This document shows positions 3,976 to 31,688 of a stretch of 64,000 bases of DNA, one piece after another. Source of the DNA: [Mycobacterium] nativiensis. Its GTDB lineage: Bacteria; Actinomycetota; Actinomycetes; Mycobacteriales; Mycobacteriaceae. The stretch covers positions 4,947,684-5,011,683 of the forward strand of contig NZ_CP083986.1 in assembly GCF_020172685.1 (NCBI RefSeq), written 5' to 3'. The position numbers and the translations under genes were made by a program. The notes under the pieces are model-generated. The model searched no databases and was not told the origin of the DNA. It saw only the letters and a list, made by a program, of their open reading frames with translations. Position 1 is the first letter of the stretch. Each line of letters opens with the position of its first letter.

Positions 3976-6900
3976 CTACGGGGTGGCCGGGTTGTTCGGG
4001 CCGTTGCTGCCGCTGGCCGTCGCGCCGTCCGACTGTGTGCCGCCGGTGTTGACGATGTTGCCGTCGGCTCCGTTGCCGCCGGTGTTGCCGACTCCGGTGC
4101 CGCTGCCGCCGCTGCCGCCGGTGGCGGTGCCGTCGGTGGCGGTGGACGGAGTTGCCGTGACGGCGCCGTCGTTGCCGAAGGCGTCGAGCCGGCTCGACCC
4201 GCCGAGGCCACCGGTGCCACCGTCCAGGCCGTCACCACCGTTGCCACCGGTCGACGTTCCGTTGGCCAGGTTGCCCGGGTCACCGCCGGTCGCGATGCTG
4301 GCCTTGCCGCCGTTGCCGCCGGTTCCGCCGTTGCCCGCGGCATCAGCGGTGGCGTTGCCACCGTGACCGCCCTGCGCGGTGCCGCTGGCCGTGCCACCGG
4401 GACCACCGAGCGATCCGGTGGTCTTGGAGCTCTGGATGTCCGAGCTTCCGCCGTTACCGCCTTGGCTGCCCGCGCCGCTGGCGTTGCCGCCGTCACCGCC
4501 GGTCGAGGTGCCGTACGAGTCGCCACCGGTGGAGCTGTGGCCGACCTCGCCGGACTCCAATTCACCGAAGCCACCGGTGCCACCGACGCCGCCGTCGGTA
4601 CCGGTGCCGCCGTTGCCGCCCTGGGCCACCGCGTCACCGCCCGCACCGATCGAGCCGCCGCCGGGTGCGTCGACCGCGAGGTAGCCGGCGCCACCGTCGC
4701 CACCGACGCCGTTGTCGCCCAGACCTCCGCTGCCGCCGGTGGCGGTACCGGTGATGGTGCTGTCCGCCCCGATTGCCGAAGCAACGGCCGCGCCACCCGT
4801 GCCGCCGGTCCCGCCGTTGTCACCGGCCCCGCCGTCGCCGCCGGTGACGGTGGTCTGGTCGATGACGGCACCATCGGTGGCCGTGATGTCGGCCGTGCCG
4901 CCGGCGCCGCCGTTGCCGCCGTTGGTCCCGGTACCCGCGTTGCCACCGGTCGCGTGGCTGTTGGTGATCGCGCTGCCCGCGCCGATCGCGGACAGGGCCG
5001 CGGCACCGCCGTCCGCGGTCTGGCTGGCGTTACCACCGGTCACCGAGCTGTGCGAGATGCTGCCGCCATCGCCGACGGTCACCGTGGCGCCACCGCCGAC
5101 GTGCTCGCCGACGTTCTCGCCGCTCTGCACGGTCACGCCGGTGACGGCGCCGCCGCCGTTGTTGATCAGCGTGTTGTTGGCGCCGTCCTGGCCGTTCACC
5201 CCGTTGGCGCCGCCGTTGGTGGCGGCACCACCGGCCACGTTGGCGCCGTCGATGGTGCTGCCCTGGCCGTCGGCCTCGATGCCGGCGTAGCCACCGGTGC
5301 CACCATTGCCGCCGACGCCGGTGCTGCTGCCCGCTCCACCGTCGCCGCCGTTACCACCCGTCGCGGTGCTGTTGGTGACGGTGCCGCCGCCGGTCTCCCG
5401 GATGATGGCGCCACCGCCGCCACCACCACCGCCACCACCCTGGCCGGCGGTCGTGCCGTCAGCGGCACCACCGCTGCCGCCGTTGCCGCCGTTGCCACCG
5501 GTCACGGTGTTGGTGTCATCTGCACCGTTGATGGCGCCGCCGCTGGCACCGGCACCGCCGTCGCCGCCGTCGCCCGCAGCGCCGGTCCCGGCATTGCCCT
5601 GGCTGTCCACGACCACCGCACCGCCGCCACCGCCGGCGCCGCCGTGTCCACCGGTGAAGCTGCCCGTGCCGCCACCGCCGCCGTTGCCACCGGCACCGGC
5701 GTTGCCGCCGACCGTGGTGCCACCGTCACCGCCGGTACCGCCGGAACCACCTGTGCTCAGCAGCGGGTTGGTCAGGTCGGCACCGACGGGTGCGCCCATG
5801 CCGCCGTCGCCACCCTTACCGCCGGAGCCGGCCGCGCCGTTCTCGGAGGAACCACCGACGCCACCGTTACCGCCGTGGCCGCCGGCCATCGTGGCCAGCG
5901 GGACGAACTCCCGGTCCACGGCACCGGTGGTGTTGCCACCGGCGCCACCGTCACCACCGTTGCCCGCGGTGTCGTCACCGGTTGCGTTGGCACCGGCACC
6001 ACCGGAGCCGCCGTAGCCGCCGTGGCCCGAACCGTCGCCACCGACACCGCCGACGCCGCCGTTGCCGCCGATGCCGTTGCCGCCGTCGGCCGCCGAGGTG
6101 ACCGCGCCGCCGGTGCCACCGTTGCCGCCGGTGCCGCCGTAGACGCCCTGACCACCGCCGCCGCCGGCACCACCGGTACCCGCCGCGTAGCCCGAGCCAC
6201 CGGAACCGCCGTTGCCGCCGGAACCGCCGACACCGATCGCGTCGTCGTGCGCCGGACTCAGGCCGTTGCCGATGAAGTCACCGTTGTCATCGGTGGCCGC
6301 GTCACCGCCGAGCCCACCGACACCGCCGTCACCACCGTTGCCGATCCGACCGAGGTTGCCGGCAGTGCCGTCGGTGTGGCCCTCGCCGCCGCCGGTGCCG
6401 CCTGCGCCGACCGTGGCGCCGGCCGCGCCGCCGTTACCGCCGTTGCCGCCGACACCACCGGAGCCGCCGACGCCGTTCTGGTCGGTCGGCACCAGTTCCG
6501 TGATCAGCACACCGTTGGCGCCCTTGCCGCCGTCACCGCCGACACCACCATTGCCGCCGTTACCGGTGTCGCCGCCGTTGCCGCCGTTGCCGTTGGTCGC
6601 GTTGCCGCCCTTGCCGCCGTCGCCGCCTATGCCGCCATCACCGGCGTTGCCACCGGCTCCACCGGCCACCGTCGGGTCGGTCGAGTCGGCGCCGGCACCA
6701 CCGTTGCCGCCCGTGCCACCGACACCGCCGGCGCCACCGTTACCGGCGTTGCCCGAGACCGAGCCACCGTTGCCGCCGACACCACCCGCGCCGCCGGCAC
6801 CACCGGCGAAGCCGTCGCCGCCGGTGCCGCCGGTGCCGTCCTGCTCGAAGAAGCCGTTCCAGCCGTCCGCACCCTGCGAGCCGGCACCACCGACGCCACC

Positions 6901-8661
6901 GTTACCGCCGTTGCCGTGGTCGCCACCGTTACCGCCGGCTCCACCGGTGCCACCGGCCACCCCGGTGTTGTCCTCGTTGAAGCCGTTGCCGGCGCCACCG
7001 ACACCGCCGTTACCGCCGTTGCCCGAGACGGTGGTCGGCATCGTGCCGTCGGCGCCGTCGGCACCCGCGGTGCCGGGCGTGCCGCCGAAGATCAGCCCGG
7101 TGGACAAGCCGGCCGCGCCGCCCTTGCCACCGGCACCGACCGTGCCGAGGTCGCCACCGTTGCCGCCGGCACCGCCGTTGCCACCACCGACCAGGCCCGT
7201 CGGGGCTGCGTCGGCGCGGATCAGTCCGGCAGTACCGAGCGGCGCGGAGCCACTGCCGGCACCACCATTGCCACCGTTGCCACCATTGCCGGCCAGGCCG
7301 GAGCCGCCACCGTTACCGCCGGCACCACCGTTACCGGCGGCACCCGCGGTGTGAATACCGAAGAAGCCGCCGGCGCCACCGTTACCGCCGGCGCCACCCA
7401 CGCCACCGGCACCACCGGATCCGGCGGTGCCACCGTTGCCGCCGGATCCGCCATCGCCCCCGAGGCCGGTCGGGTCAGCCGCAAGCGCGCTGACACCTGC
7501 GGCGGGACCGCCCACCAGCTGCGTGCTGTCGTTGCCGTTGCCTCCGATACCGCCGTCACCACCGTTGCCGCCGACACCGCCGTTACCGCCGGCGCCACCG
7601 GTACCGCCGCCGCCGGAGGTGCCGAACAGACCGGCCGCGCCGCCGTTGCCACCGACACCGCCGGCGCCACCGATGAAGCCGTCCACACCGGCGCCGCCGT
7701 CGGTGCCCGCAATGCCGGTCGCGCCGTCACCGCTGCCGGGGAAGCTCAGCCCGTCCAGGCCGCGATCGCCGTTGGTTCCGGCCGCACCGTTGCCACCGGC
7801 GCCACCGGTACCACCGCTGCCGCCGTTACCGAACAGGAAGCCGGCGACACCACCGTTGCCGCCGGCCAGGCCGGCCACACCCGCCGCGCCGACACCGTCG
7901 ACTCCGAACGCGCCCGCGCCACCGTCGCCACCGTTACCCAGCAGGAAGCCACCGGCACCACCGTCACCGCCGACCATGGCCAAGCCGACACCGCTGCCGC
8001 CGGCACCACCGTCGCCGAGCATTCCGCCCGCGCCGCCGTCGAGGTCAATCGAGCTGGCGTTCGCGAATGAGTAGGTACCGCCCTCAACGTCGGCCAGGGT
8101 GATCACATCGCCGTCAGCGTTGGTCAGGGCCGAGCCGTCCGCCCCGATCAGATCACCGTCGGCGTTGAAGAACGTGCCGCTGCCGCCGTCGCCGAACAGG
8201 AAGCCGCCCGCGGTGGCGGCGTGGTAGATCAGGTCGCCGTCGTCGAGGCTGACGTAGGCGTTGGCGCCGTTGGCGAAGACACCGTCTATGACCAATCCGC
8301 TGCTGATCATCATCTCGCCGAGGCTGTGCAGCGGTTGGTAGATCACCATGTTGATCGCGTTGGCGACCATGTCATCCAGCCACTGCAGCGGGTCGACCAT
8401 CTGGTCGGCGGCCGAGCCCGGGATGTCACCGCCGAACAGCGCGCTGTAGTCGGCGAGCGACGACTCCAGCGCAGATGAGTCGAACCACGTCGAGGTCTGG
8501 CTGAACAGGGCGTCGAAGATCTCGTCGAACCCGTCGGCGCGCGCCGGGGCTGCTGTCAGCGGCGTCATGCCGAAGGCGAGGAAAGCGCCCACCGCGCTCG
8601 TCGCGCCGATCGCGCGGCCGGCCCGGCGCTTGTTCTTCCCGAGGAAATTCTTCGTCGACAT
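3976..8661 (-). CDS. Giant exported PGRS-repeat protein without PE domain (1)
   Basis: The product is a 1561-residue glycine-rich protein. The N-terminus is a basic, Sec-type signal peptide (KRRAGRAIG, then [18 protein letters not shown]) and not a PE domain. A non-repetitive domain follows at about residues 45-165 ([34 protein letters not shown]) and is shared with the protein at 10691-14059. Residues from about 165 to 1000 are GGxGGx repeats of the PGRS type. The C-terminal part has TATGG-type units and a closing module ([22 protein letters not shown]) shared with the protein at 14488-21891. The ATG is set by AAGGAG five bases upstream. A surface or secreted role is inferred from the signal peptide. 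The function is unknown. Confidence 0.85.
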
Positions 8662-9079
8662 GATTTCTCCTTGAGGCGACGCTGCAGGCGGTTGACATGT
8701 ACGTAAAAACGCTTAGTGCGTATTAAGGTAGCAGAGCGGGTTTCAAACCGGAAGCCTTATCCGAATTTGGCTTTGCCGCACCACACTCGCCTGATCACGC
8801 CGGTCAGCGAGGTATCCGCCGCCCGCTTCCCGGGGCATTTTTCCAACTCCGCGGAAAAATAACCGTTTAAAGAACCTGATAGTCGGTGGCCGTTTTATTT
8901 ATATGCTCTAGCAATTTATTTGCTGACTCGCGCGATGCAAGCGCTTGGTTGGGTCTCCTGGGCATGCCGAAAAGCACCGGCTGCTGTGGTTATCGCGGGT
9001 CGCACCGTGGCTGGGGACGGGATCGTCCGGCGCGTTCCCGGCCGGACAGTGACCCTGCGCGTTTGCGGGGGCGTCGGCG
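8662..9079. other. Intergenic region upstream of PGRS gene 1, AT-rich segment
   Basis: This 418-base stretch has no supported gene. On the minus strand TACCTT (complement of 8725-8730) is a possible -10 for the PGRS gene, 64 bases before its ATG. Bases 8855-8930 are unusually AT-rich for this genome (runs such as TTTTATTTATATG), in contrast to the flanks. Such segments are often bound by Lsr2-type silencers, but that is inference. No hairpin was recognised at the end of the racemase-like gene. Confidence 0.4.
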
Positions 9080-10183
9080 TCAGAAGCGGTAGGCGCGGAC
9101 GGCGTCGGGATCCGGGTCGAGGCCCAGCCCCGGGCCCTGCGGCACGATGATCCGGCCGTTCATCGGTGCCAGCGCGTCCCCGTAGATCGAGGTCAGCTGG
9201 TCGAACCAGCGCCACTCGATCATCGCGTCGGCGCCGCCCAGCGCCGCGGCCACCTGGATCGCGGCCAGCAGTCCCGGCCCGTCGTAGAACGAGTGCGTCA
9301 TCACCGGCACACCGTGGGTGCCGGCCAGCGGAAAGACCTTGCGCAGCTCGGTGATTCCGCCCATCTTCGCCGGGCTGGGCTGCACGAAGTCCACCGCGCC
9401 GGAGTCCAGCAGTCGCTCGAATTCCATGACGGTGCCGACGTTTTCACCCGACGACACCGGCAGGCCGGTGCGTCGCCGCAGTTTGGCCAGGCCGTCGAAG
9501 TTCTCCGGCGGCCACAACGGTTCCTCCAGAAACGTCAGGTCGAGGGCGTGCAGGTCGGCGGCAAGCGCCTGCACCTGCGGCAGGCTCCAGGCGCAGCCGG
9601 CGTCGACGATCAACGCGATGGCGGGGCCGGCTTCCTCGCGCGCCGCCCGCATGGCGGGCAGCCCGGATTCGTGCAGTTTGATCGCACCGAATCCGTCGTC
9701 GACCACGCGGCGCACCACGGCGCGGACGCGTTGCGGCTCCGTGTAGCAGGCCAGGCTGGCGTAGCAGGGCAGGGCCCGAGCTCGGTGGCCCTCGCTGAGC
9801 AGCTCCGCGACCGGGACACCGGCGAGCTTGCCGGCGATGTCCCACAAGGCGATGTCCACCGCGGACAGCGCATAGGTGATCGCGCCGCCGCGGCCGAAGA
9901 CGTGCAGCCTGCGTTGCACCTGCTCCATCAGCGCGGCGATATCGCCGGCGTCGCGGCCCAGGCAGAGCGGGGTGATCAGTTCGTTGAGCGCGTGGGCGGC
10001 CAGGCCGGTGCCGTACAGGCCGAACGCCTCGCCCCAGCCCACCACGCCGTCGCTGGTGGTGACCTTGACCAGCAGCGCGTCCGCCGCTTCGAGCGGCTCG
10101 CCCCACAGCGCAGCGCCCGGCAGGTCCGCTTTGAGCGGGATCCGCAGCGAAATCGCCTCGATTTCGGCGATGACGGACGGCAT
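9080..10183 (-). CDS. Mandelate racemase/muconate lactonizing enzyme family protein
   Basis: This 367-residue protein belongs to the enolase superfamily. An N-terminal capping domain (residues 1-120) is followed by the barrel. The metal ligands are visible as D194 (IVDAGCAW), E220 (LEEPLW) and E247 (SSGENVG). K169 and H171 (IKLHES) sit at the end of the second barrel strand, and H297 (MTHSFYDG) could be a general base. This set fits acid-sugar dehydratases or racemases of the mandelate racemase subgroup, but the substrate cannot be deduced. The start at 10183 (MPSVIAEIEA) fits the family; the longer open frame to 10501 is antisense to the GtrA gene. The gene is divergent from the GtrA gene, with 30 bases between them, and is not part of the M. 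tuberculosis locus. Confidence 0.85.
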   Translation of the reverse strand: MPSVIAEIEAISLRIPLKADLPGAALWGEPLEAADALLVKVTTSDGVVGWGEAFGLYGTGLAAHALNELITPLCLGRDAGDIAALMEQVQRRLHVFGRGGAITYALSAVDIALWDIAGKLAGVPVAELLSEGHRARALPCYASLACYTEPQRVRAVVRRVVDDGFGAIKLHESGLPAMRAAREEAGPAIALIVDAGCAWSLPQVQALAADLHALDLTFLEEPLWPPENFDGLAKLRRRTGLPVSSGENVGTVMEFERLLDSGAVDFVQPSPAKMGGITELRKVFPLAGTHGVPVMTHSFYDGPGLLAAIQVAAALGGADAMIEWRWFDQLTSIYGDALAPMNGRIIVPQGPGLGLDPDPDAVRAYRF

Positions 10184-10213
10184 GGTTCTCAGCGTAGGAC
10201 TTAAGCTTCCCGG

Positions 10214-10624
10214 GTGACCGAGACGACGCAACGCCCCTTGCACCTGTCCACGCAGGTGTGGCGCTTTCTGGTCACCGGCGTGCTGTCGGCGGTGGTGGAC
10301 TTCGGGCTGTATCTGCTGCTGTACCTGGGTTTCGGGGTCAAGGTCGACCTGGCCAAGGCATGCAGCTTCATCGCCGGCACCACCACCGCATACCTGATCA
10401 ATCGGCGCTGGACGTTCCAGTCTTCGGCCAGCAAGGCCCGGTTCGTCGCGGTGATGGCGTTGTACGCGTTGACATTTGCTGTGCAGGTGGGGATCAACCA
10501 CCTGGTGCTGGATCTGCTGGACTACCAGCGTTGGGCGCTGCCGGTGGCGTTCGTGGTGGCGCAGGGCACCGCGACCGTCATCAACTTCGTGGTGCAGCGG
10601 ACGTTGATCTTCCGGGCGCGCTGA
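10214..10624 (+). CDS. GtrA-family membrane protein (Rv3789-like)
   Basis: This 136-residue protein has four predicted membrane segments (about residues 16-36, 43-62, 78-97 and 105-128) and the GtrA-family motif [11 protein letters not shown] (about 59-69). The M. tuberculosis homologue Rv3789 is immediately upstream of dprE1 and has been linked to arabinan synthesis, either in decaprenyl-phosphate-arabinose transport or as a partner of AftA. Here a 13-kb PGRS array separates it from dprE1, so any co-transcription is lost. It starts with GTG at 10214 with no clear ribosome-binding site. A strong hairpin after the stop separates it from the convergent PGRS gene. Confidence 0.88.
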
Positions 10625-10642
10625 GCGCGACTTGATACCTGC

Positions 10643-10675
10643 GCGGCGGGTGCGTCCCGTGGGCGCACCCGCCGC
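10643..10675. terminator. Bidirectional hairpin between GtrA gene and PGRS gene 2
   Basis: A perfect 12-base stem (10643-10654 with 10664-10675) encloses a nine-base loop between two convergent genes. It begins 18 bases after the GtrA stop and ends 15 bases from the PGRS stop. No U-tract is visible. Position and stability support a terminator serving both strands. Confidence 0.65.
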
Positions 10676-10690
10676 CGCGGGTAGCCGCGA

Positions 10691-13600
10691 TCAGGGGTTG
10701 CTGGTGCCGGTGGTGCCGGGAGCTCCCGGCGCACCGGTGGCGCCGCCGTTGTGGCCGTTGCCACCGTTGGTGCCGTGGCCGGTACCGCCCGAACCGTTGC
10801 CGCCGACGCCGCCGTCGCCGCCCCTGCCGCCGTCGCCGTTGCCGTCGTCTCCGGGGGCGCTGCCGTTGCCGCCGTTGCCGCCGTTGCCGCCGGAACTATC
10901 GGCGTCGGTGGAACTCTGGCCGCCGGACTGCCAGACGGTGCCGTGCCCACCGTTGCCGCCGACACCGCCGGTGGCGCCGTCGGTGCCGTTGAGGCCGCCG
11001 TCACCGCCATTGCCGGCGACCGAGGTGCCGTCCGCTATCTGGGTGCCTGCGGCAATCGGGTCGTAGGCCTGGATAAAGCCGTTGCCGCCGGCACCGCCGT
11101 CGCCGCCGTTGCCGTCACCGCCGTTGCCTCCGGTTGCGTGGCTTCCAGTGACGCTCCCGTTCAGCCCGGCGGCGCTGGCGCCGCCGCCGGCACCACCAGT
11201 GGCATGGGCTGCGGTGGCCGCGCCGCCGTTGCCGCCGATGACCGTGGCGTCAGCGATGCCGGTGGACCCGCCGGCCGTCACCTGGGCGTAGCCGCCGCTG
11301 CCACCGATGCCGCCGTTGGTGGCGCTGCCGCCGGCACCTCCGGTGGCCGCGCCGCTCGCAACACCGCCACCGGCGCCGAACTGAGTGGACTCAATGTAGG
11401 CAGTCCCGCCGAGGCCGCCGACGCTGTCGACGCCGGTGGCGTCACCGCCTGCGCCGCCGGTGGCAGTGCCGCTGACGCTGCCGCCCGCGCCCCAGATGTT
11501 CAGATATCCATCACCGCCACTGCCGCCGACACCGGCGTTGCCAAACCCGCCGATCCCACCGGTGGCAGTACCGGTGATGGTGCCGCCGGCGCCATCTGCG
11601 TTGACGATCGCCCAACCGCCGGTGCCGCCGGTACCGCCGTTGCTGGCGGTGCCTCCGAGCGCGCCGGTGGCATGAGTGGCGTCGACGGTGGCACCACTGG
11701 TGGCGTAGATGCCGGCCACGCCGCCGTCACCGCCGGTGCCGCCGTTGATCTGGCCGGCCCCACCGTTACCGCCGGTCGCCGTGCTGTTGGAGATGGTGGC
11801 ACCTGGCCGGTATGCGGTGAGCTCTGCGTAGCCGCCGGCGCCACCGTTACCGCCGACGCCCGCGGCGGTACCCGCACCACCGGCACCGCCGTCACCGCCG
11901 GTCGCGGTGCTGTCGGTGATGCTGCCGCCCAGGAAGGCGCTGGTGATGGCCCCGCCCCCACCACCGCCACCGCCACCACCGTGGCCGCCGACCTGACCGG
12001 TGACAGTCTGCCCGGCGCCGCCGGCACCGCCGTTGCCCGCGGTCGCACCGTCACCGATCGCACCGCCGGCGTAGCCCGCGCCACCGGCGCCGCCATCGCC
12101 CGCCGTGCCGGTGTTGGCCCCACCGCCGTCGCCACCGGCGCCTCCGGTGCCGCCGATGAAGCTGCCCGTGCCGCCCACGCCACCCACACCGCCGTCGCCG
12201 CCGTTGCCGGTACCGGTGCTTGCACCACCGACACCGCCGGTTCCACCGGAACCACCGGTGGCCAACACCGAGCCGGCCTCATCAGGTGTACCCCCGCCAC
12301 CGACGCCACCATTGCCGCCGGTGCCGGCCGCGCCGTCCTCGGAGGTTCCGCCGGCGCCACCGGTGCCACCGGTGCCGCCGGTCGGCCAGCTGCCGTCACC
12401 GCCGCTGCCGATGACGTTGCCGCCCTGGCCGCCGTTGCCGCCGTTGCCGGCGGTCTGGCTTCCGCTCGCGGCACCGCCGACACCACCGTCACCGCCCTGG
12501 CCGCCCAAGTAGTAACCGTCGGCACCAATACCGCCGTCACCACCGTTACCGCCGTGGCCGTGATCGCCGGCAGCGCCACCGGCACCACCGACACCACCGG
12601 ACATCGCCATGCCGCCCTCGTCGTAGCCACCGCCCTGGCCGCCGACGCCGCCATTGCCGCCGTTACCCGACTCCTGCAACGCACCCGCGTCGCCGGCGGC
12701 GCCGGCCTGGCCCTGCGAACCGGTGAAGATGCCGCTCGCCACGCCGCCCTTGCCGCCGGCACCACCCGCACCGGCGGTACCGATATTGCCGCCCTGGCCC
12801 CCGGCGCCACCGGTAGCCCCGACACCATCGGCGCTGTTGCCCCCGGCACCACCGTCGCCGCCGTTGCCGGCCAGGCCCGCGTCACCGCCGAGCCCACCGG
12901 CGCCACCGTCACCGGCGTTGCCCGTGGTGTGAAGTCCGAAGAAGCCACCCCTGCCCGCGTCACCGCCGTTGCCGCCGGCGCCGCCGATCGCGCCGGCTGC
13001 GCCGTCACCACCGCTGCCTCCGGCGCCGCCGACCCCGCCGATGTCCTCCAGGCTGTCCGCGCCACCGCCACCGATGCCGCCGTTGCCGCCGGCTCCTCCG
13101 GCGCCTGCGTTGCCGCCGGCTCCGCCGACGCCACCGTTGCCCGAGACACCGAACATTCCGGCCTGGCCGCCGGCGCCACCGTTACCGCCGACGCCACCGT
13201 TGAACCCGTTGCTGCCGTTGGTGCCGTTGCCGCCGGCCACCCCGGGCTGCCCGTCGATGTTGCCCGGGAAGGTCAGACCGCTCAGACCGGCGTCGCCGGC
13301 CGCACCGGTCGCACCCAGACCACCGGCGCCACCGGCACCACCATTGCCGGCATTGCCGAACAGCACGCCGGCGTCACCGCCGGCACCACCGTTGCCGCCG
13401 AGTCCACCGGCCGCTCCGACGCCGTCGAGGCCGGCCGCGCCGCCACCGCCGTTGCCGCCGTTGCCCATCAGCCAACCGCCGGCGCCCCCGGCGCCACCGT
13501 CACTGCCGGTACCGGCCGGGCCGCCGAACAAGCCCTCGCCGCCCACGCCGCCGTTGCCGAACATGCCCGCGTCGCCGCCGGCCGACCCACCGAAACCGGC

Positions 13601-14059
13601 GCCGCCATCACCGAACAGGAAGCCGCCGTTGGTCGCGGCGTGGAACACCCCGTCGGTGTCGACGTAGGCGTCGGCGCCGTGGCCGAACACTCCGTCGATG
13701 ACCAGGCCGCCGGCGATGAGGCTGTCCCCGAGGCTGTGGAGCGGGTTGTAGATCAGGAAGTTGATGGTCTCGGCGACGAAGTCGTCGAAGGCCTGCAGCG
13801 GATCCACCATGCCGCTGTCGGCAGCGCCCGGCATCGCCCAGGACCAGTCGAGCGTCGCGGTGTCCAAGCTCGACGAGTCGAACCAGGTGGCCGACTGGAC
13901 GAACAGGTCGTCCCAGAAATCGGCGAAGTCGGCGTGCGCCGCCGGGGCTGCCGTCAGCGGAGCCACCCCGAACGCAAGGAACGCGCCCGCCGCGGTCCCG
14001 GCACCCAGCACCCGGTTCCCGCGACGACCCTTGGACCCGTTCCGACGCCGACCAACCAT
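10691..14059 (-). CDS. Giant exported PGRS-repeat protein without PE domain (2)
   Basis: The product has 1122 residues. It opens with a basic signal peptide (RGNRVLGAGTAAGAFLAFG, then APLTAAPAAHA) matching the other two PGRS proteins. The same non-repetitive domain as in protein 1 follows (WFDSSSLD, MVDPLQAFDDFVAETINFLIYNPLHSLGD split over about residues 50-105, then [16 protein letters not shown]). The rest is GGxGGx repeats, then TATGG-type units such as SITDSTATGG. It lacks the [13 protein letters not shown] closing module of proteins 1 and 3, and ends in a plain PGRS stretch. I chose the ATG at 14059 because GAGGAG lies seven bases upstream and the signal peptide then begins correctly; the frame stays open to 14353. 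A surface role is inferred; no enzyme motif is seen. Confidence 0.85.
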   Translation of the reverse strand: MVGRRRNGSKGRRGNRVLGAGTAAGAFLAFGVAPLTAAPAAHADFADFWDDLFVQSATWFDSSSLDTATLDWSWAMPGAADSGMVDPLQAFDDFVAETINFLIYNPLHSLGDSLIAGGLVIDGVFGHGADAYVDTDGVFHAATNGGFLFGDGGAGFGGSAGGDAGMFGNGGVGGEGLFGGPAGTGSDGGAGGAGGWLMGNGGNGGGGAAGLDGVGAAGGLGGNGGAGGDAGVLFGNAGNGGAGGAGGLGATGAAGDAGLSGLTFPGNIDGQPGVAGGNGTNGSNGFNGGVGGNGGAGGQAGMFGVSGNGGVGGAGGNAGAGGAGGNGGIGGGGADSLEDIGGVGGAGGSGGDGAAGAIGGAGGNGGDAGRGGFFGLHTTGNAGDGGAGGLGGDAGLAGNGGDGGAGGNSADGVGATGGAGGQGGNIGTAGAGGAGGKGGVASGIFTGSQGQAGAAGDAGALQESGNGGNGGVGGQGGGYDEGGMAMSGGVGGAGGAAGDHGHGGNGGDGGIGADGYYLGGQGGDGGVGGAASGSQTAGNGGNGGQGGNVIGSGGDGSWPTGGTGGTGGAGGTSEDGAAGTGGNGGVGGGGTPDEAGSVLATGGSGGTGGVGGASTGTGNGGDGGVGGVGGTGSFIGGTGGAGGDGGGANTGTAGDGGAGGAGYAGGAIGDGATAGNGGAGGAGQTVTGQVGGHGGGGGGGGGGAITSAFLGGSITDSTATGGDGGAGGAGTAAGVGGNGGAGGYAELTAYRPGATISNSTATGGNGGAGQINGGTGGDGGVAGIYATSGATVDATHATGALGGTASNGGTGGTGGWAIVNADGAGGTITGTATGGIGGFGNAGVGGSGGDGYLNIWGAGGSVSGTATGGAGGDATGVDSVGGLGGTAYIESTQFGAGGGVASGAATGGAGGSATNGGIGGSGGYAQVTAGGSTGIADATVIGGNGGAATAAHATGGAGGGASAAGLNGSVTGSHATGGNGGDGNGGDGGAGGNGFIQAYDPIAAGTQIADGTSVAGNGGDGGLNGTDGATGGVGGNGGHGTVWQSGGQSSTDADSSGGNGGNGGNGSAPGDDGNGDGGRGGDGGVGGNGSGGTGHGTNGGNGHNGGATGAPGAPGTTGTSNP

Positions 14060-14116
14060 GCCGATTCTCCTCAGGTAAAAAACATAAAACTCATAACTGC
14101 TCCCGACAGGGCCAGA

Positions 14117-14122
14117 GGTTAA
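14117..14122 (-). promoter_or_regulatory. -10-like box of PGRS gene 2
   Basis: On the minus strand this reads TAACCT within GTTAACCT. The identical octamer lies at exactly the same distance (58 bases) upstream of the ATG of PGRS gene 3. Conserved spacing in otherwise diverged leaders supports a shared promoter element. No clear -35 was found. Confidence 0.45.
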
Positions 14123-14378
14123 CACCTTCCGACCGGGACGGACTCGGATCGATGAATTCGACTTGACCTGCATCAGGATGGCTGAACACGCCGTTGAAGG
14201 AAGGCCCGGAAGCGAAGGTGTGACACTGGGGTAGACCTGAGAAAAAAAGGAGACATTCCCGGGAAACTCGCTGTTGGTTGAAAACCCGTCAGGCGCGTTC
14301 GCCAGGTGCCGCAAAGACCGATTACTCAGACGGCGATTCCGCTGCCGCCCCACCGGTCACTTCCGCACCTGCGGGTGA

Positions 14379-14422
14379 CCATGTGGGTGTTGTCGAATCG
14401 GATATCGCCGGTGATAGCCGGG
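14379..14422. repeat. 44-bp dispersed repeat, copy 2
   Basis: It matches 2055-2098 at 40 of 44 positions. Bases 14400-14419 form an imperfect palindrome (GGATATCGCC/GGTGATAGCC, 16 of 20 symmetric). It lies between the PGRS gene 3 terminator and the PGRS gene 2 promoter region. Confidence 0.7.
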
Positions 14423-14434
14423 GGGTGAGCTGAA

Positions 14435-14471
14435 AACACCGCGGCCCGGTCTGGTGACCGGGCCGGGTGTT
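14435..14471 (-). terminator. Intrinsic terminator of PGRS gene 3
   Basis: A 16-base stem with a single-base bulge and a four-base loop lies 17 bases after the stop codon. On the minus strand it is followed by TTTT. The central stem sequence (GCGGCCCGGTC) also forms the hairpin at 22395-22426 behind the PGRS pseudogene, which shows common ancestry. Confidence 0.75.
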
Positions 14472-14487
14472 CTCGAGGGGCTACGGG

Positions 14488-17400
14488 TTACGGCTTGTTC
14501 GCGCCCGGAGCACCGATCTCGGTCTGGCCGTCCGACTGCGCGCCGCCCACGTTGACGATGTTGCCGTCGCCGCCGTTGGTACCGGTGTTACCGGTCCCGG
14601 TCCCGAAGCCACCGTTGCCGCCGACAGCGGTGCCGTCGGTGGCCGTGGACGGAGTGCCGGACCCGTCGACGCCGAAGGCGTCGAGCCGACTTGACCCGCC
14701 GGTGCCGCCCTGACCGCCATTCAGACCACTGCCGCCGAGGCCACCCTGCGAGGTGCCGTTGGCGACGTTGCCCTCGTCACCGCCGGTGGCGATGGCGGCT
14801 TTACCACCGTTGCCGCCGGTACCTCCGCCGGTCGCGTTGCCACCGTTGCCACCGGTCGAGGTTCCGCTGGCGGTGCCGCCCGGCCCACCGAGCGAGCCAC
14901 CGTCGGTCAGCTTGGAGCTCTGAATGTCGGAGCTGCCGCCGTTGCCGCCATGGCTACCGTCGCCGATGGCGGCACCGCCGTTGCCGCCGGTCGAGGTGCC
15001 GTAGGAGTTGCCTCCGGTGGCGTCGACCGCGGACCCGTCGCCAGACTCCAGCTCACCCCAGCTGCCCTTGCCTCCCACGCCACCGTCGTAGCCGTCGCCG
15101 CCCTTACCGCCGATCGCGACCGCGGTGTTGCCGCCGCCACCGATCGAGCCGCCGGGGTTGTCGACCATCAGCTGTCCGCTGCCGCCCTCGCCGCCGATAC
15201 CGGGTGTATGGGCGGGGGTGGTCCCGACGCCGCTGCCCAGGCCGCCGGCGCCGCCGACGGCGTTTGCGTCGGTGATGGTGCTGCCAGCACCGTTGGCCGA
15301 GGCCAGGCCGAATCCGCCGAGGCCACCCCGGCCGCCGTCGAAGCCCTGGCCCCCGACGCCGCCCGTGACCGTCGTGCCGCTCACAACCCCACCCGCGGTG
15401 ACGTTGATGTTGGCCGCGCCACCGCCACCGCCCTGACCACCGAAGTTGTCGCCGACACCGGCGTTGCCGGCGGTGGCGGAGCTGCCGGTCACGGAGCTGT
15501 TAGCGCCGTCGGCGCTGATGCCTGCAGCACCACCGCCTGCGGTGCCGCTGGCGGCGGTAGCGGTGGCGGAACTGTCGGAGATCGACCCGCCGTTCGTGGC
15601 CTGCAACAGGGCGTTCCCGCCGTTCCCGCCAGCCCCGCCGTCGCCGCCGGTGACGCTGCTGTTGGTGACGGTGTTGCTTCCGGGGTCAGTGCCGGTGTTC
15701 GGGTTCCCGGTGAAGATCTGGGCGCGCCCGCCTGCGTTGCCCTCGAAAGCGTTACCGGCATTCGCCGTCCCGTTGGTGATCGTGTCGCCGGTGGCGCTGG
15801 TCTCCACGTACGCCTGGCCACCAATAGCGCCGGTGTTACCGGCGCTGCCCGCACCACCGTCGCCGCCGACGGCATGGCCGTTGGCGATGGTGCTGTCCGC
15901 ACCGAGCGCTCGCACCCAGCCGAGGGCGCCGTTGCCGCCCTTGCTGCCCGCGCCATCAGCGCTGCCGCCGTTTCCGGCTTGGCCGATACCGCTGGCCTTG
16001 GCACCCTCGATCAGCGCCGACACCTGACCGTTCTCACCGTTGCCACCGATGCCGCCGTGGGAGGCGTCACCACCGTTACCGCCATGGCCGATGCCACTGG
16101 CCTCGGAGCCCTGGCCGCCGGCCAGGATGCTGCCATATCGGCCGTCGCCGCCGGTGCCGCCGCTGCTGGCATTGCCGCCGTTCCCGGCGATCGCCACACC
16201 GTGGGCAATCCCGCCGATTCCACCGTCGGCGCCGGGGACACCGCTGGCAGTCTGCTTGGCGCTGGTGATGTCGGCATTCCAACCCTTACCGCCGTGGCTG
16301 TTGGCATCGACGGCGTTCCCGCCGTTCCCACCAGTGGCCTGACCGTAGGAGATACCATCCTGACCCGCGGTGACGTGACCGTTGCCACCGGCTCCACCGG
16401 TACCACCGTCGGTTCCGCTGCCGCCCTTGCCGCCCAGGCCGGTGGTGATGCTGGTGGCGTCACTTGGGTCGCCGGTGACCTTGCCACCGAGAGCGGCCTC
16501 CAGGTACCCGGTGCCACCCAGGCCACCGATACCGGCGTTACCGTTGCCGCCGTCACCGCCCGTGGCGACGCCGGTGGCCGAGCTGCCGGACCCATCTGCC
16601 GTGACATAGCCCGCGCCGCCCGCACCGCCGGTTCCTCCGTTGGAACCGTCCCCGCCGACGCCGCCGGTGATGGTGGCGGTGTCTACGGCACCGCCGTTGG
16701 TCGCGGACGCGTAAGCCGTACCACCTGCCCCGCCGGTGCCGGAGTTGCCGGAACCGGCTGCGCCACCGGTCACGTGAGTGTCGGTCACCGTGCTGCCAAT
16801 GCCGTCAGAGGTGACGGTGGCAGAACCACCGTTAGCGGTGTCGCCGGACGCGGTTGCGGTGGCAGAACTGTCGGAGATCGACGCGCCGTTGGTGGCCTGC
16901 AACAGGGCGCTCCCGCCAGACTCGCCGGCCCCGCTGTCACCGCCGGTGACGCTGCTGTTTGTGATGCTGTCGCTACCAGTCGTCGTAGCGTTCGGGTTGC
17001 CCGCGAAGATCTGCGCGCGTCCGCCTGTCGAGCCGTTGACGCCGTTGGCGCTGTCGCCACCCGTGCCAGCAGTCGCCGTGCTGCTGGCGATCGTGTCGTT
17101 CGCGGCATTGGTCTGCACGTAGGCCTGACCGCCACTACCGCCGTTGTTGCCGGCGCTGCCCACACCGCCATCGCCGCCGGTGGCGCTGCCATTGGTGATG
17201 GTGCTGTCCTGGGCCAGCGCGCGGACCCAACCCAGACCGCCGTCGCCACCGCGACTGCCTGCACCGTCACCGTCACCGCCGTTGCCGGCCTGACCGGTCC
17301 CGCTGGCGTATGTCCCATCGCCCAACGCCGCAACCTGGCCGTTCTGGCCGTTACCGCCGGTGCCGCCATTGAGGCCGTCACCGCCGTGGCCGCCGTGGCC

Positions 17401-19100
17401 GGTGCCGCTGGCCTCCGCACCGGTCCCGCCGGCGTTGATGCTGCCGTAGCTGCCGTTACCGCCGGTGCCGCCACCCGTAGCGCCGCCACCGTCGCCGCCG
17501 ATCGCGGTGCCGTGGGCCGTGCCGCCGGGACCGCCCAGACCGCTGTGCGCCTCACCGGCATCGATACCACCGTTGCCACCGATACCGCCCTTGCTGGTGG
17601 CGTCTCTCGCGGTACCGCCGGAGCCGCCGGACGCCTGACCGTACGAGGTGCCGCCCTGGTGTGCCTCGACGCCACCCAGGCCACCCTTGCCGCCGGTGCC
17701 ACCATTGGTGCCCTCACCGCCGGAACCACCGGTAGCGGTGGTGGCGGGCGCACCCACCGCCGGGTCGTTGATGACCTGGCCGCCATCGGTGGCGGAGATG
17801 TAGCCGGTGTTGCCCGCGCCACCGGTCCCGCCATCGCCGTTTCCGCCGTCACCGCCGGTCGCGGTACCCGTGGCCGCACTGCCCGAACCGTCGGCGGTGA
17901 CGGTGCCGATCCCACCGGCACCACCGGTGCCACCATTGCTACCGCCACCGCCGACGCCACCGTCGGCGGCAGCGTCCGCAACACTGCCCCCGTTGGTAGC
18001 GCCGACGAACGCAGCACCTCCGGCACCACCGGCACCGCCATCGGACCCGACGCCGGCGTTACCACCGGTGGCGGAACTACCGTCGACAGTGCTGCCCGTG
18101 CCGTCGGAGGTGACGCTCGCCGAACCTCCGTTCGCGGTGTCATTTCCGGCCGCACCGGTTGCGGAACTGCTGGTGATGGTGCCGCCATGGCTGGCCTCCA
18201 CCGTGCCGCCACCACCGGTGTGACCGGCGATGCCGCCGGTACCACCGGTCGCATCGCCGCCGGTAATGCTGCTGCCCGCACCGACATTCGCCGTGACGTT
18301 GGCCTCGCCGCCATAGGCGCCCTGTTCAGCGACGCCTGCGGCACCACCGTCGCCGCCGGTGCTGTGCGCCCCGGAGATGGTGTTGTCGGCACCGGCGGTG
18401 ATGTAACCGATGTTGCCGCCACCGCCAACGGCGCCGTTGCCGGTACCGGAGCCACCGTCGCCGCCCTGCGCTGTGCCATCGGCCTTCGCATCCGCACCGA
18501 ACGCGTTGACCTGACCACCCATGGCGTTACCGCCGGTGCCGCCGTCAGCGCCGGCACCACCGTTACCGCCGGTGGCGCTACCTGAAGCTTCCGAGCCCGC
18601 ACCACCGGACAGGATGCTGCCGTAGCTGCCCTTACCGCCGGTGCCGCCATTGGTCGCAGCCCCGCCGGCACCGCCCTGGGCGGTGCCGTGCGAGGTGCCG
18701 CCGGTGCTGCCGCCCTCGGCCCGCGCACTCTGGATGACGCCGTTGCCACCCTGACCGCCGTTGCTGCCGGAGCCGCCGGCGGTACCGCCGTCACCGCCGG
18801 TGGCGCTGCCATACGACGTGCCACCAGTGCCGTTATCACCGGCGTTGCCAACCTCCAGCTCACCAAAGCCAGCCTTACCCCCGACGCCGCCGTTGGTGGC
18901 GTTCCCGCCGTTACCGCCCTGTGCCGCAGCACTATTGCCGCTACCGCCGATGCTGCCGGCGGCATGGTCAACCACCAGGTAACCGCCACCACCGTCACCG
19001 CCGATGCTGCCCGTGCCTTCGCCGCTACCACCGCTGCCGCCGGTCGCGGTGCCGGTGATGGTGCTGCCCGCACCGGTCGCTGAAACACCGCCAGTACCGC
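14488..19100 (-). repeat. Higher-order coding repeat in PGRS protein 3 (about 1.2-1.3 kb units)
   Basis: The codons for the marker YGSI occur at 18613-18624, 17437-17448 and 16126-16137, and the related IAAK at 14791-14802. Spacings are 1176, 1311 and 1335 bases, all multiples of three (392, 437 and 445 codons). Other markers, such as SYGQA, LGWVRAL, GGRAQIF and SISDSSATATA, recur with the same period in the middle two units. The outer boundary near 19100 is approximate. Confidence 0.7.
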
Positions 19101-21891
19101 CGACACCACCGGTGCCGTCGTTGCTACCGGTGCCACCGACACCACCGTGCACGGTCGTGCCAGTGACGACGGCACCGCCGTTGACGCTGATGCCCGCGGT
19201 GCCACCGTCACCGGCGTTGCCGCCGTTGGCGTCTCCGACACCACCGGTGCCACCGACTGCCGTGCTGTCAGCGACGCTGCTGCCGGTTCCATCGACTTCA
19301 AGGGCCGCCGCGCCGCCCGTGCCGCCGTTGCTGCCGACACCGGAAGTGGTGCCCGCCGCGCCAGCCCCGCCGGTTCCGCCAGTCGCGGTGCTGTCGGTGA
19401 TGGTGCCGCCGTTGGTTGCGCTGGTGAGGGCGCCACCGCCGCCACCACCACCGCCGCCGCCCTGGCCCGCGGTCGCACCGTCGGCAGCGGCCCCGGCACC
19501 ACCGGCACCACCGCCGCCGCCGGTCGCCCCGTTTCCGATAGCACCGCCCTGAGCACCGGCGCCACCGTTGCCGCCGGCCCCGGCAGTACCGGTGTTGGCC
19601 GCACCACCACTACCACCGGCACCGCCGTGGCCGCCGGTGAAGCTGCCCTTGCCGCCATCACCACCGGTACCACCGGCGCCACCATTACCCGCACCGGTGC
19701 TCGCGCCGCCGGTACCACCGGTGCCGCCCGAGCCGCCGGTCGTCAGAGTGTTGAGCAGGTTGGCGGGAACAACCGGCGCGCCGGCCCCGCCGTCGCCGCC
19801 GGTGCCACCGGCACCTGCCTGGCCGTCCTCGGAGGTACCGCCGACGCCGCCATTACCGCCGTGACCGCCGGCCAGCGTGCCGTATTGACCGATGTTGCCC
19901 TGACCGGTGGTGTCACCACCGGCGCCGCCGTTCCCACCGTTACCGGCGGTGTCGGTCCCGGTCGCGTTAGCGCCGGCACCACCCTGGCCGCCGTAGCCAC
20001 CGTGACCGGAGCCCGCACCGCCGGCGCCACCGGTGCCACCGTTACCGCCGACACCGTCGTCGCCGACCGCGCCACCGGCACCACCGTTACCGCCGGTGCC
20101 GCCGTAGACACCCTGACCGCCGACACCACCGTCACCACCGGTACCGGCGTGGTGGCCCGTACCGCCGTTACCACCGGTGCCACCTGTGCCGCCCACGCCA
20201 AGCGCACCGACGTGCGCCGGGCTCAGGCCGTTGCCGATGAAGTTGCCGTTGTTGTCCTTGGCCGCGTCGCCACCGGCACCGCCGACGCCACCATTGCCAC
20301 CGTCACCTCGGTCGGCGTGTGTGGTGCCATCCGCTTCCAGGCCGCCTTGGCCACCGTTACCGCCGTTGCCACCTGTCCCGCCGGTCAAGCCACCGAGACC
20401 GGCCTGTGTGCCATCAGCGCCGGCCGTGCCGTCGCCACCGTCACCGCCAACACCGGCAGAACCGGCGGCCCCGCGGGTGATCCCGTCAGCTTCCAGGCCG
20501 CCCTTGCCCGCGTTACCGCCAGTCCCGCCGTCGCCACCGTTGGCACCCGCCACCGCGCTGGGATCGGTGGCGGCGTCGTAGCCGTGGCCACCGACGCCAC
20601 CGTTGCCGCCGGTGCCGGCAGTACCGTCCGTACCGTCGGCAGCCTGCCCGCCGGCGCCATGGCCGCCCGCACCGCCGTGCCCGGCGTTGCCGCCGTTTCC
20701 GCCCGCCTGACCTGCACCAGCTGCGGTGGTGGCGGTCCCGGCGGTACCGGTCGCACCGGCGGCGCCGTCGCCACCCGAGCCACCGTTGCCGCCGATCCCG
20801 CCCACGCCTTGGGTCGCAGCTGCGCCTGCCGCACCCGCGCTGGCGAACCAACCGCCCGCACCGCCCGCACCGGCCTTGCCGGCGGTTCCGCCGTCACCGC
20901 CTTGCCCGCCGTCGCCGGCGTTGGTGCCGTTGGGGTTGGTTGCGGTCCCGTCTTGACCGTCGACACCTTGGCCGCCAGTACCGCCCTGGCCGCCATTACC
21001 CGCCGCGCCGCCCTTGCCGCCGGCGCCGAACAGCATCGATCCCTTACCGCCGGCGCCACCGTTACCGCCCGCGCCACCGGCCTTACCGTCGCCGCCGAGT
21101 CCCGCGAGGGCGCCAGCCACCCCGGCGGCGCCGGCGGCGCCGACCGCGCCGTCACCGCCGTTACCGCCGTTACCGGCTGTGCTGAACCCGCCCCACTGGG
21201 CGGCGTCACCACCCGCACCGCCATTGCCACCAGCGTCGCCACCGTTACCACCATTGCCACCGTGGCTGAACCAGGAGAACGGACCAGCGGCACCACCGTC
21301 ACCACCGGCGCCGCCATCGAAACCACTACCACCGTTGCCGCCGTCGCCACCGAACAGACCACCCTGGCCACCATCACCACCGCTGTCATCGCCGCCGGTG
21401 CCGTCGGAGTTCCAACCGTCACCACCAGTACCGAAGATCCAGCCGCCGGCGCCACCGTTAGGGTCAGCCGCCGTGCCGTCCGCGCCATTGCCGAACGGCA
21501 CCAGCCAGTTGACGTCACTCCAATTGAAGGCCGCCGCCGAGCCCGGCAGGGTGGAGTCAGCCGCGCCGCTCAACCCGTTCAGGTCGAGGTCGGCCAGCAC
21601 CGCGTTCCACGTCGCCTGGTCGCCGAGGCCGTCGTAGAAGGCCGTCCAGCTGGCCGGGTCCAGGACCACCTGCCAGGCATCCTGATCAGCGAAGTTAACG
21701 CCTAAGCCGTTGATCGCGTCGCCCAGTCCCTGCCCCAGCAGATCAACGAGGACATCGTCAAAGTCGGCGCGCGCGGGAGCGGCGGCCAGCGGGGCCATCC
21801 CGAAGGCAAGAAACGCCCCGACAGCCGTACCAGCACCGATCACCCGGCTGTTGCGACGATTCTTGGACCCGGAGTGACGGTGACGAGCCAT
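14488..21891 (-). CDS. Giant exported PGRS-repeat protein without PE domain (3), 2467 residues
   Basis: This is the largest gene in the window. The leader is a basic signal peptide ([20 protein letters not shown], then APLAAAPARA) matching the other two PGRS proteins. The short region after it (about 43-125; DLLGQGLGDAING, DPASWTAFYDG) differs from that of proteins 1 and 2. Residues ~125-830 are GGxGGx PGRS repeats. From about 830 the protein has units such as [11 protein letters not shown] arranged in a higher-order repeat of about 390-445 residues. It ends with the same closing module as protein 1 ([25 protein letters not shown]). The ATG is set by GGGGAG upstream. Length and repetition suggest an elongated cell-surface protein, but nothing shows its partner or activity. 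Confidence 0.85.
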   Translation of the reverse strand: MARHRHSGSKNRRNSRVIGAGTAVGAFLAFGMAPLAAAPARADFDDVLVDLLGQGLGDAINGLGVNFADQDAWQVVLDPASWTAFYDGLGDQATWNAVLADLDLNGLSGAADSTLPGSAAAFNWSDVNWLVPFGNGADGTAADPNGGAGGWIFGTGGDGWNSDGTGGDDSGGDGGQGGLFGGDGGNGGSGFDGGAGGDGGAAGPFSWFSHGGNGGNGGDAGGNGGAGGDAAQWGGFSTAGNGGNGGDGAVGAAGAAGVAGALAGLGGDGKAGGAGGNGGAGGKGSMLFGAGGKGGAAGNGGQGGTGGQGVDGQDGTATNPNGTNAGDGGQGGDGGTAGKAGAGGAGGWFASAGAAGAAATQGVGGIGGNGGSGGDGAAGATGTAGTATTAAGAGQAGGNGGNAGHGGAGGHGAGGQAADGTDGTAGTGGNGGVGGHGYDAATDPSAVAGANGGDGGTGGNAGKGGLEADGITRGAAGSAGVGGDGGDGTAGADGTQAGLGGLTGGTGGNGGNGGQGGLEADGTTHADRGDGGNGGVGGAGGDAAKDNNGNFIGNGLSPAHVGALGVGGTGGTGGNGGTGHHAGTGGDGGVGGQGVYGGTGGNGGAGGAVGDDGVGGNGGTGGAGGAGSGHGGYGGQGGAGANATGTDTAGNGGNGGAGGDTTGQGNIGQYGTLAGGHGGNGGVGGTSEDGQAGAGGTGGDGGAGAPVVPANLLNTLTTGGSGGTGGTGGASTGAGNGGAGGTGGDGGKGSFTGGHGGAGGSGGAANTGTAGAGGNGGAGAQGGAIGNGATGGGGGAGGAGAAADGATAGQGGGGGGGGGGALTSATNGGTITDSTATGGTGGAGAAGTTSGVGSNGGTGGAAALEVDGTGSSVADSTAVGGTGGVGDANGGNAGDGGTAGISVNGGAVVTGTTVHGGVGGTGSNDGTGGVGGTGGVSATGAGSTITGTATGGSGGSGEGTGSIGGDGGGGYLVVDHAAGSIGGSGNSAAAQGGNGGNATNGGVGGKAGFGELEVGNAGDNGTGGTSYGSATGGDGGTAGGSGSNGGQGGNGVIQSARAEGGSTGGTSHGTAQGGAGGAATNGGTGGKGSYGSILSGGAGSEASGSATGGNGGAGADGGTGGNAMGGQVNAFGADAKADGTAQGGDGGSGTGNGAVGGGGNIGYITAGADNTISGAHSTGGDGGAAGVAEQGAYGGEANVTANVGAGSSITGGDATGGTGGIAGHTGGGGTVEASHGGTITSSSATGAAGNDTANGGSASVTSDGTGSTVDGSSATGGNAGVGSDGGAGGAGGAAFVGATNGGSVADAAADGGVGGGGSNGGTGGAGGIGTVTADGSGSAATGTATGGDGGNGDGGTGGAGNTGYISATDGGQVINDPAVGAPATTATGGSGGEGTNGGTGGKGGLGGVEAHQGGTSYGQASGGSGGTARDATSKGGIGGNGGIDAGEAHSGLGGPGGTAHGTAIGGDGGGATGGGTGGNGSYGSINAGGTGAEASGTGHGGHGGDGLNGGTGGNGQNGQVAALGDGTYASGTGQAGNGGDGDGAGSRGGDGGLGWVRALAQDSTITNGSATGGDGGVGSAGNNGGSGGQAYVQTNAANDTIASSTATAGTGGDSANGVNGSTGGRAQIFAGNPNATTTGSDSITNSSVTGGDSGAGESGGSALLQATNGASISDSSATATASGDTANGGSATVTSDGIGSTVTDTHVTGGAAGSGNSGTGGAGGTAYASATNGGAVDTATITGGVGGDGSNGGTGGAGGAGYVTADGSGSSATGVATGGDGGNGNAGIGGLGGTGYLEAALGGKVTGDPSDATSITTGLGGKGGSGTDGGTGGAGGNGHVTAGQDGISYGQATGGNGGNAVDANSHGGKGWNADITSAKQTASGVPGADGGIGGIAHGVAIAGNGGNASSGGTGGDGRYGSILAGGQGSEASGIGHGGNGGDASHGGIGGNGENGQVSALIEGAKASGIGQAGNGGSADGAGSKGGNGALGWVRALGADSTIANGHAVGGDGGAGSAGNTGAIGGQAYVETSATGDTITNGTANAGNAFEGNAGGRAQIFTGNPNTGTDPGSNTVTNSSVTGGDGGAGGNGGNALLQATNGGSISDSSATATAASGTAGGGAAGISADGANSSVTGSSATAGNAGVGDNFGGQGGGGGAANINVTAGGVVSGTTVTGGVGGQGFDGGRGGLGGFGLASANGAGSTITDANAVGGAGGLGSGVGTTPAHTPGIGGEGGSGQLMVDNPGGSIGGGGNTAVAIGGKGGDGYDGGVGGKGSWGELESGDGSAVDATGGNSYGTSTGGNGGAAIGDGSHGGNGGSSDIQSSKLTDGGSLGGPGGTASGTSTGGNGGNATGGGTGGNGGKAAIATGGDEGNVANGTSQGGLGGSGLNGGQGGTGGSSRLDAFGVDGSGTPSTATDGTAVGGNGGFGTGTGNTGTNGGDGNIVNVGGAQSDGQTEIGAPGANKP

Positions 21892-23101: not shown

Positions 23102-23159
23102 CGACAAACGGTCGCGTTCCTCATTACCCTGCGGGCAGTAAAGGAACGCGACCTTGTCG
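23102..23159. repeat. Long near-perfect hairpin in intergenic DNA
   Basis: A perfect 12-base stem (23110-23121 with 23142-23153) is extended by a further 6 pairs (23102-23107 with 23154-23159) after a two-base bulge, around a 20-base loop. It lies between the PGRS pseudogene and the unknown gene at 23256. It could end transcription of that gene on the minus strand, 97 bases after its stop, or be a mobile palindromic element. Confidence 0.6.
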
Positions 23160-23255
23160 CCGTGCTTCTCGGCCTGCTACGACAGCAGGTCGACGAGGGT
23201 AGGTGCGCTGGGCGCAGTCACGGTCATCGCCCAGCCACCTACACCCCCGTCGGGG

Positions 23256-23816: not shown

Positions 23817-23894
23817 TGCGCGATCGTAGCGGGTACCACTGCGAATAGTCACGCGCACCCGGGATCCGGCGCGTTGGCGGTACCCTCATGTGCG

Positions 23895-27910: not shown

Positions 27911-27932
27911 CGAACGCACTCGAGCGTCCCGA

Positions 27933-27938: not shown

Positions 27939-27946
27939 CTAGGCCC

Positions 27947-31680: not shown

Positions 31681-31688
31681 CGAGGCTC

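Follow-up and report, generated by a model that had tools for sequence, protein, structure and literature searches.

The 64,000-nucleotide stretch of DNA analysed here (the window) codes for three large glycine-rich proteins with PGRS repeats, P0001, P0002 and P0003, and raises the question of how such proteins might be exported in the absence of the PE domain that defines the PE_PGRS proteins. The three genes lie on the same strand (Table 1). For P0002, the mechanical ORF spans positions 10691-14353 (-), the likely start being an internal ATG at 14059. Glycine accounts for 28–50% of every 150-aa segment beyond the first in the three proteins. Their leaders follow a single layout: a basic stretch comes first, the motif GA.(S/T)A.GAFLAFG next, and a short run of Pro and Ala then leads to A-R-A or A-H-A, with D directly behind. 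That of P0001 showed a net charge of +6 ahead of the h-region, a 12-residue Kyte-Doolittle maximum of 1.68 and an ARAD site, and it matched the leader of P0003 at 63% over residues 7-52. None of the three window proteins had a match in Pfam or NCBIfam at E 0.01, PF21526 (‘PGRS repeats’) included. An earlier note on this DNA had described three PGRS proteins with a near-identical leader and no PE domain; the frames, the leader ends (A-R-A-D or A-H-A-D) and the Pfam search all bore this out.

Table 1. Features of the three PGRS genes and of the gene lying between the first two; positions are those of the window.
Feature	Position	Strand	Extent	Basis or remark
P0001 (SP-PGRS protein 1)	3976..8661	(-)	1561 aa	ORF and translation
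P0001 putative signal peptide, A-R-A before D43	8536..8661	(-)	residues 1-42	rules and family leader alignment
P0001 diverged PLH core, predicted helix and then PGRS entry	8206..8535	(-)		family alignment, AlphaFold2, dN/dS
P0001 C-terminal TATGG repeats as modelled	3979..5499	(-)	residues 1055-1561	predicted parallel beta-helix
Mandelate racemase/muconate lactonizing-type enzyme	9080-10501	(-)		between P0001 and P0002
P0002 (SP-PGRS protein 2), from internal ATG	10691..14059	(-)	1122 aa	
P0002 putative signal peptide, A-H-A before D44	13931..14059	(-)	residues 1-43	
P0002 diverged PLH core	13610..13930	(-)		family alignment
P0002 TATGG repeat region	10694..11692	(-)		48% in alignment to P0001 tail
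P0003 (SP-PGRS protein 3)	14488..21891	(-)	2467 aa	translation
P0003 putative signal peptide, A-R-A before D43	21766..21891	(-)	residues 1-42	
P0003 long TATGG repeat region	14491..19524	(-)		

The N-termini of P0001 and P0002 were 55% identical over their first 174 and 178 residues, confirming that two of the three proteins have a stretch of ∼120 residues in common. This stretch appears to be more than a chance resemblance, since the mature N-terminal part of P0001 has relatives with 85–90% identity in four Mycolicibacter records (L165, L170, L154 and L151), with dN values of 0.046–0.084, dS values of 0.16–0.30 and a dN/dS ratio of about 0.25–0.35. The same relatives, with dN below dS, and the leader itself determined the choice of the minus strand; long antisense ORFs overlap the three genes. 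The domain had, however, been called unique, and it turned out to be a diverged form of a core present in most other members of the family described below. In most members this core runs from Y-x-P-x-H through Q/E-x-W-I-x-S-x-x-G and I-N to LIGNG or LICNG, and then into GG-x-GG...F-G-D-G-G-x-G. The cores of P0001 and P0002 are diverged, while P0003 retains the PGRS entry only (GNGADGTAADPNGGAGGWIFG), with no clear PLH helix. A GRPLI-type motif takes the form TGRALIGDG in L038, L048 and L049, appears as LIGNG or LICNG without GRP in many other members, and is degenerate in P0001 and P0002. The AlphaFold2 model behind the P0001 core (28-row alignment, mean pLDDT 70.5, pTM 0.67) predicted a helix at model residues 48-77, with pLDDT rising from below 50 to ∼78, followed by the PGRS start at residues 81-210, with pLDDT of 80-93. 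The sole PDB entry that matched the modelled PGRS start at E <0.001 was the springtail antifreeze protein 7jjv (E 1.7e-4), a polyproline-II bundle; the superposition was poor (TM-scores of 0.14–0.19 by query), the snow-flea entry 2pne came at E 0.44, and the likeness is taken as an analogy of fold, with no kinship claimed.

The earlier note had proposed a profile-type search with the N-terminal 165 residues. The first 165 residues of P0001 did retrieve a family, but at 37 places in the same genome rather than three. A core profile run on this genome (150 of 166 candidates scored) gave 47 matches; 42 of these were examined, 31 of them being among the 37 places already found and 11 being new. 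Combining both searches, the genome contains at least 48 leader-type genes. Most of the 48 proteins carry PGRS repeats, the exceptions being L052, L054 and L219, which are low in glycine and lack PF21526; this domain was detected in the other 13 of the 16 further own-genome members scanned at full length, and in 2 of 26 N-terminal fragments. Further members (L047, of 3005 aa; L051, of 3137 aa; L028, L029 and L041) lie just upstream of the window, at 4.89–4.94 Mb of the genome. Sequence comparison thus supports the view that the window trio belongs to a large and conserved family of PE-free PGRS proteins with a signal peptide (SP-PGRS); the distinct family suggested earlier is real, but it is by no means confined to the trio.

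The same core was also found behind other N-termini. A core profile search of 40 genomes gave a match in 38, and the locus with the best core was inspected for 29 genomes besides that of the window. In 13 of the 29 the best core stood behind a PE domain. The remaining 16 were PE-free: 12 had a different leader (VGG; G-R-V-G-G-L-A-(V/I)-A-L-G-I-G-A, later A-W-A-D or variants, and then a Pro/Ala/Thr-rich linker), and four had a third hydrophobic N-terminus, which ends in LLLGPDSPTM (L198 was typed from its linker alone). PF21526 was present in one VGG-borne protein (L188), one of the third type (L192) and one PE-borne protein (L202). After exclusion of rows whose core contained masked letters, the full set of 128 cores comprised 20 PE-borne cores, 88 with the leader of the window family (AFL), 15 VGG and five of the third type; 21 of the 128 were classed as ‘other’ by regular expression and were reassigned by eye and record (15 to AFL, one to VGG and five to the third type). 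The presence of the same core behind a PE domain, the AFL leader, the VGG leader and the third N-terminus makes it clear, at the level of sequence, that export signals have been exchanged on a homologous core.

Leader and signal-peptide calls were based on rules (n-region charge, hydrophobicity and A-x-A site). By these rules, the features of a Sec-type signal (a basic n-region, a hydrophobic h-region and an A-x-A site) were present in all 37 members found with the leader search, with n-region net charges of +1 to +7; the hydrophobic stretch is short and rich in alanine. A-x-A-[DE] occurred within the first 200 residues of all 48 members. No lipobox Cys was found in any of the 48, and lipoprotein identity was therefore rejected. 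The Tat-like pattern RRx[FGAVML][LITMVF] before the h-region was matched by four of the 37 and by none of the three window proteins; Tat was thus rejected as the chief route. A hydrophobic segment is present in all members, and it might act as an uncleaved signal anchor, in which case Sec would carry the proteins out but leave them attached to the inner membrane, and the PGRS would occupy the periplasm instead of reaching the cell surface. The giants of more than 2400 aa (P0003, L047 and L051) could span the periplasm, and the third N-terminal type (L094, L100, L192, L196 and L206) looks anchor-like by eye. However, an A-x-A just past a hydrophobic stretch is the classical signal peptidase I site, and A-x-A-[DE] followed the hydrophobic motif in 37 of 37 members (within a span of 5 to 35 residues past the motif start); further, the PecA-type cargo shared with surface PE_PGRS proteins, described below, speaks for a role at the surface. 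An uncleaved anchor is consequently considered unlikely, and a cleaved signal peptide remains the preferred reading.

A PE or PPE domain, the finding that would have contradicted this reading, was sought with Pfam in the three window proteins and with a PE HMM in all 48 members, and was absent. The HMM, for which eight PE domains of this genome served as the seed, matched none of the 48 at E 0.01; it does match 20 PE-borne cores in other genomes. (The PE family model also matches the Escherichia coli control genome above its cut-off.) The genome itself contains 16 PE matches in open frames of 99–313 aa, and the three longest, when read, contained 10–14% glycine and were not PGRS; the idea that PE_PGRS proteins are concealed among them was rejected on this ground. 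Since the 16 PE frames are short and the three longest are not PGRS, no PE_PGRS turned up in this genome, compared with 48 leader-type proteins, a statement made for the window genome alone. According to PMC6819658, the ESX motif YxxxD/E follows the PE helices. It was present in all eight own PE domains read. In the span of 130 residues that precedes the core, it was seen for 20 of 20 PE-borne cores, 3 of 88 AFL, 0 of 15 VGG and 0 of 5 third-type cores, although the motif is itself part of the PE domain and the two are thus not independent. Between leader and PGRS, YxxxD/E occurred in 5 of the 48 members, P0001 and P0002 included (as YxxxD, with no PE domain).

Loss of ESX-5 was rejected as the cause of the switch in export signal, because an EccD5-like gene and EspG are present: the EccD encoded in a cluster near 2.385–2.402 Mb matches the solved EccD5 (E 9.1e-208), and one of three EspG matches adjoins it. 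The type VII route is therefore available in this genome, yet unused by the SP-PGRS class if the leader is what it seems. It might be argued that ESX-5 still exports these proteins, through a PPE or EspG partner acting via the PLH helix, the leader-like segment being incidental. Such a reading can draw on the ESX-5 genes and the 49 PPE matches of the genome, on two members (L026 and L044) lying within ∼2 kb of PPE genes, on the occurrence of the PLH core in PE_PGRS proteins and on the YxxxD of the P0001 and P0002 N-terminal domain. It appears very improbable nonetheless, as no member has a PE domain, the ESX motif is rare before AFL-type cores and constant before PE-type ones, the same core stands behind other signal peptides, and the conserved leader would be left unexplained.

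In an alignment of 18 core rows, 14 columns were invariant, four of them (H, I, N and I) preceding the glycine-rich part and 10 lying within it; Y, P, W, S, G and I were conserved at ≥90% before the glycine-rich part. The earlier note had proposed that the PGRS architecture was reached by another export route, but the pre-repeat core of the SP-PGRS proteins looks homologous to that of PE_PGRS. An independent origin of the repeats in the two groups was judged unlikely, indeed scarcely credible: low-complexity PGRS repeats could arise repeatedly, cores with the same type of leader group strongly together on the core tree and the glycine-rich part supplies 10 of the 14 invariant columns, but the pre-repeat stretch Y.P.H...Q.WI.S..G...D..IN plus LIGNG, of which Y, P, H, W, I, S, G, I and N are invariant or ≥90% conserved over the 18 rows, is not of low complexity and is common to the PE, AFL, VGG and third types. 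The core tree, which had many weak forks, was built from 65 columns of 88 of the 128 cores (48 of the 88 AFL rows were kept). The leader types required six changes on it, against a mean of 36.2 for shuffled labels (0 of 200 shuffles as low). Three AFL rows (L026, L044 and L143) fell among PE rows on long branches, two L043 cores and L158 (AFL) were placed beside VGG rows, and the third type was nested inside AFL. AU tests rejected neither a single PE clade (p 0.438) nor, narrowly, a single AFL clade (p 0.054). L026 and L044 are leader-type members near PPE genes with cores among the PE-borne ones, and a local swap from a PE domain to a signal peptide is possible in their case.

A leader-plus-core profile gave a match in 137 of 396 genomes of the genus and none in 259, with 10 candidates scored per genome. 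Full scoring identified 16 genomes with 22–63 family matches each and 10–17 PE matches, and four further genomes with 5–11 family matches and 14–19 PE matches. In nine weak-match genomes (1–7 matches each), 17 of the 28 matches started at profile position 30 or later, and therefore matched the core more than the leader. A scan of named loci with the pattern GAFLAFGM, which is biased to the AFL leader (best 80 of 91 kept), returned 79 loci, of which 75 were from Mycolicibacter, three from Mycobacterium sp. UM_WGJ and one, L143, from a metagenome-assembled contig assigned to ‘Candidatus Melainabacteria’, probably a misbinned mycobacterial contig. As 75 of the 79 named loci are from Mycolicibacter, we infer that the window genome and the 16 family-rich genomes are of the Mycolicibacter (M. 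terrae complex) type, and that the family has expanded there. It is quite possible, although we propose it tentatively, that the PGRS core is older than its link to PE and ESX-5: it would have been secreted first by means of a signal peptide (compare the VGG-leader and Mycolicibacter proteins) and captured by PE in the lineage towards tuberculosis-like species, while in Mycolicibacter the signal-peptide form would have multiplied into dozens of genes that stand in for PE_PGRS.

The C-termini of the family vary. Enzyme-type domains were found in 12 members other than the window trio. Eight members of this genome (L033, L038, L039, L048, L049, L217, L221 and L222) end in a glycoside hydrolase 5 domain and all consist of a signal peptide, a short PGRS and GH5; this cargo is closest to endoglycoceramidase I (216–295 bits, far under the family cut-off of 700), and the VGG-leader protein L188 carries the same cargo (211.6 bits). 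L054 (354.8 bits) and L225 (244.1 bits; cut-off 150) end in a PecA-type aspartic protease with no PE domain. L052 ends in a phosphoesterase, and L056 has a CMD domain. The trio instead ends in TATGG repeats. Three pieces of the P0003 region align with the P0001 tail at 48–60%, and repeat motifs are more numerous in P0003 than in any other of the 48 proteins. These tails are predicted to be parallel beta-helices, with strands from about residue 1085 in the P0001 model; as Foldseek gave no match to the model at E 0.001, this call is based on the model itself and on another aligner. Among the matches listed are adhesins and enzymes with a parallel beta-helix (EtpA, Vag8, AlgE4/6 and tailspikes), at 9–18% identity. 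Next to the trio lies a cell-wall locus (window positions 23154-38131 and 42836-60679) in which Pfam identified an FAD-binding oxidase with an ALO domain, which we take to be DprE1-like, AftA, three Emb-type arabinosyltransferases, a ketosynthase-acyltransferase-thioesterase synthase (presumably Pks13-like), an AMP-ligase, GlfT2 and Glf.

Taken as a whole, the trio probably consists of SP-PGRS members in which a signal peptide replaces the PE domain, exported through the general path rather than by ESX-5 and forming part of a Mycolicibacter expansion. The sequences themselves show the anatomy, the size of the family, the missing PE domain, the core in common with PE_PGRS and the ESX-5 genes, while export, cleavage, surface location and function are inferred. 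Through its basic n-region and its short hydrophobic core, AFLAFG, the protein would enter general export, most likely by Sec, with Tat serving a few members at most, and signal peptidase I would cleave after A-x-A. The PLH helix would then cap the start of a polyglycine-II PGRS sheet lying in the mycomembrane, as proposed for PE_PGRS, and the C-terminus would be displayed, as a beta-helix tail in the trio and as an enzyme-type domain in the 12 others. Since the PE domain and its accompanying YxxxD/E motif are missing, ESX-5 would be bypassed by this class. The PGRS repertoire of the clade would thus have exchanged type VII secretion for the general secretory route, unless it had kept to the latter all along.

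PE_PGRS proteins are usually viewed as one unit whose spread follows ESX-5 (PMC7550000 and PMC1660551). The PE-free form separates PGRS function from export route, the PGRS module having seemingly been combined with a number of export signals. With it come naturally occurring ‘PE-less’ PGRS proteins and a clade suited to the study of PGRS separately from the type VII system, as well as a plausible reason for the occurrence of PGRS-like proteins in species reported to have no PE_PGRS genes. No description of an SP-PGRS-like family, of its Mycolicibacter expansion, of the core behind four N-terminal types or of beta-helix tails was found in the open-licence literature searched, chiefly by title and start of abstract. 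Signal exchange itself is already known for LipY, in which, according to PMC7550000, one mature part is preceded by PE, by PPE or by a signal peptide in different species. LipY thus resembles SP-PGRS in exchanging export signals on one mature part, but it is a single enzyme and not an expanded family; the family-wide form and the Mycolicibacter expansion are apparently new.

A second parallel is offered by PGRS proteins of M. smegmatis, described in a 2025 review as having a questionable PE domain (PMC11939664). These resemble SP-PGRS in their PGRS domain, their doubtful PE domain and their occurrence in a species without ESX-5, and they may be of the VGG-leader type. The closest comparison is with the PE_PGRS proteins of slow growers, such as PE_PGRS33 and PecA. 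Outside the window trio, most SP-PGRS members scanned at full length share with them the PF21526 entry; further similarities are a helical linker in which an N is conserved and which, in many members, has a LIGNG/GRPLI-type motif, a polyglycine-II type model, and C-terminal cargo that includes a PecA-type aspartic protease. For PE_PGRS, PMC9436101 and PMC7550000 describe a linker that is alpha-helical as far as GRPLI, together with a polyglycine-II sandwich, so the two layouts are alike. PMC7550000 also reports that, in M. smegmatis, a species lacking ESX-5, PE plus the l-GRPLI region is enough for localisation to the surface; part of the localisation signal may therefore lie in the common linker. 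The M. marinum protein PecA, a PE_PGRS in its own right, cleaves PE domains (PMC6819658). SP-PGRS proteins differ from these in the absence of PE, in the scarcity of the ESX motif before AFL cores, in the presence of a signal peptide instead, and in their predicted beta-helix tails and endoglycoceramidase-like cargo. By analogy, the mature part of SP-PGRS would work like that of PE_PGRS, whereas the family falls outside PE_PGRS by the PE domain that defines the latter.
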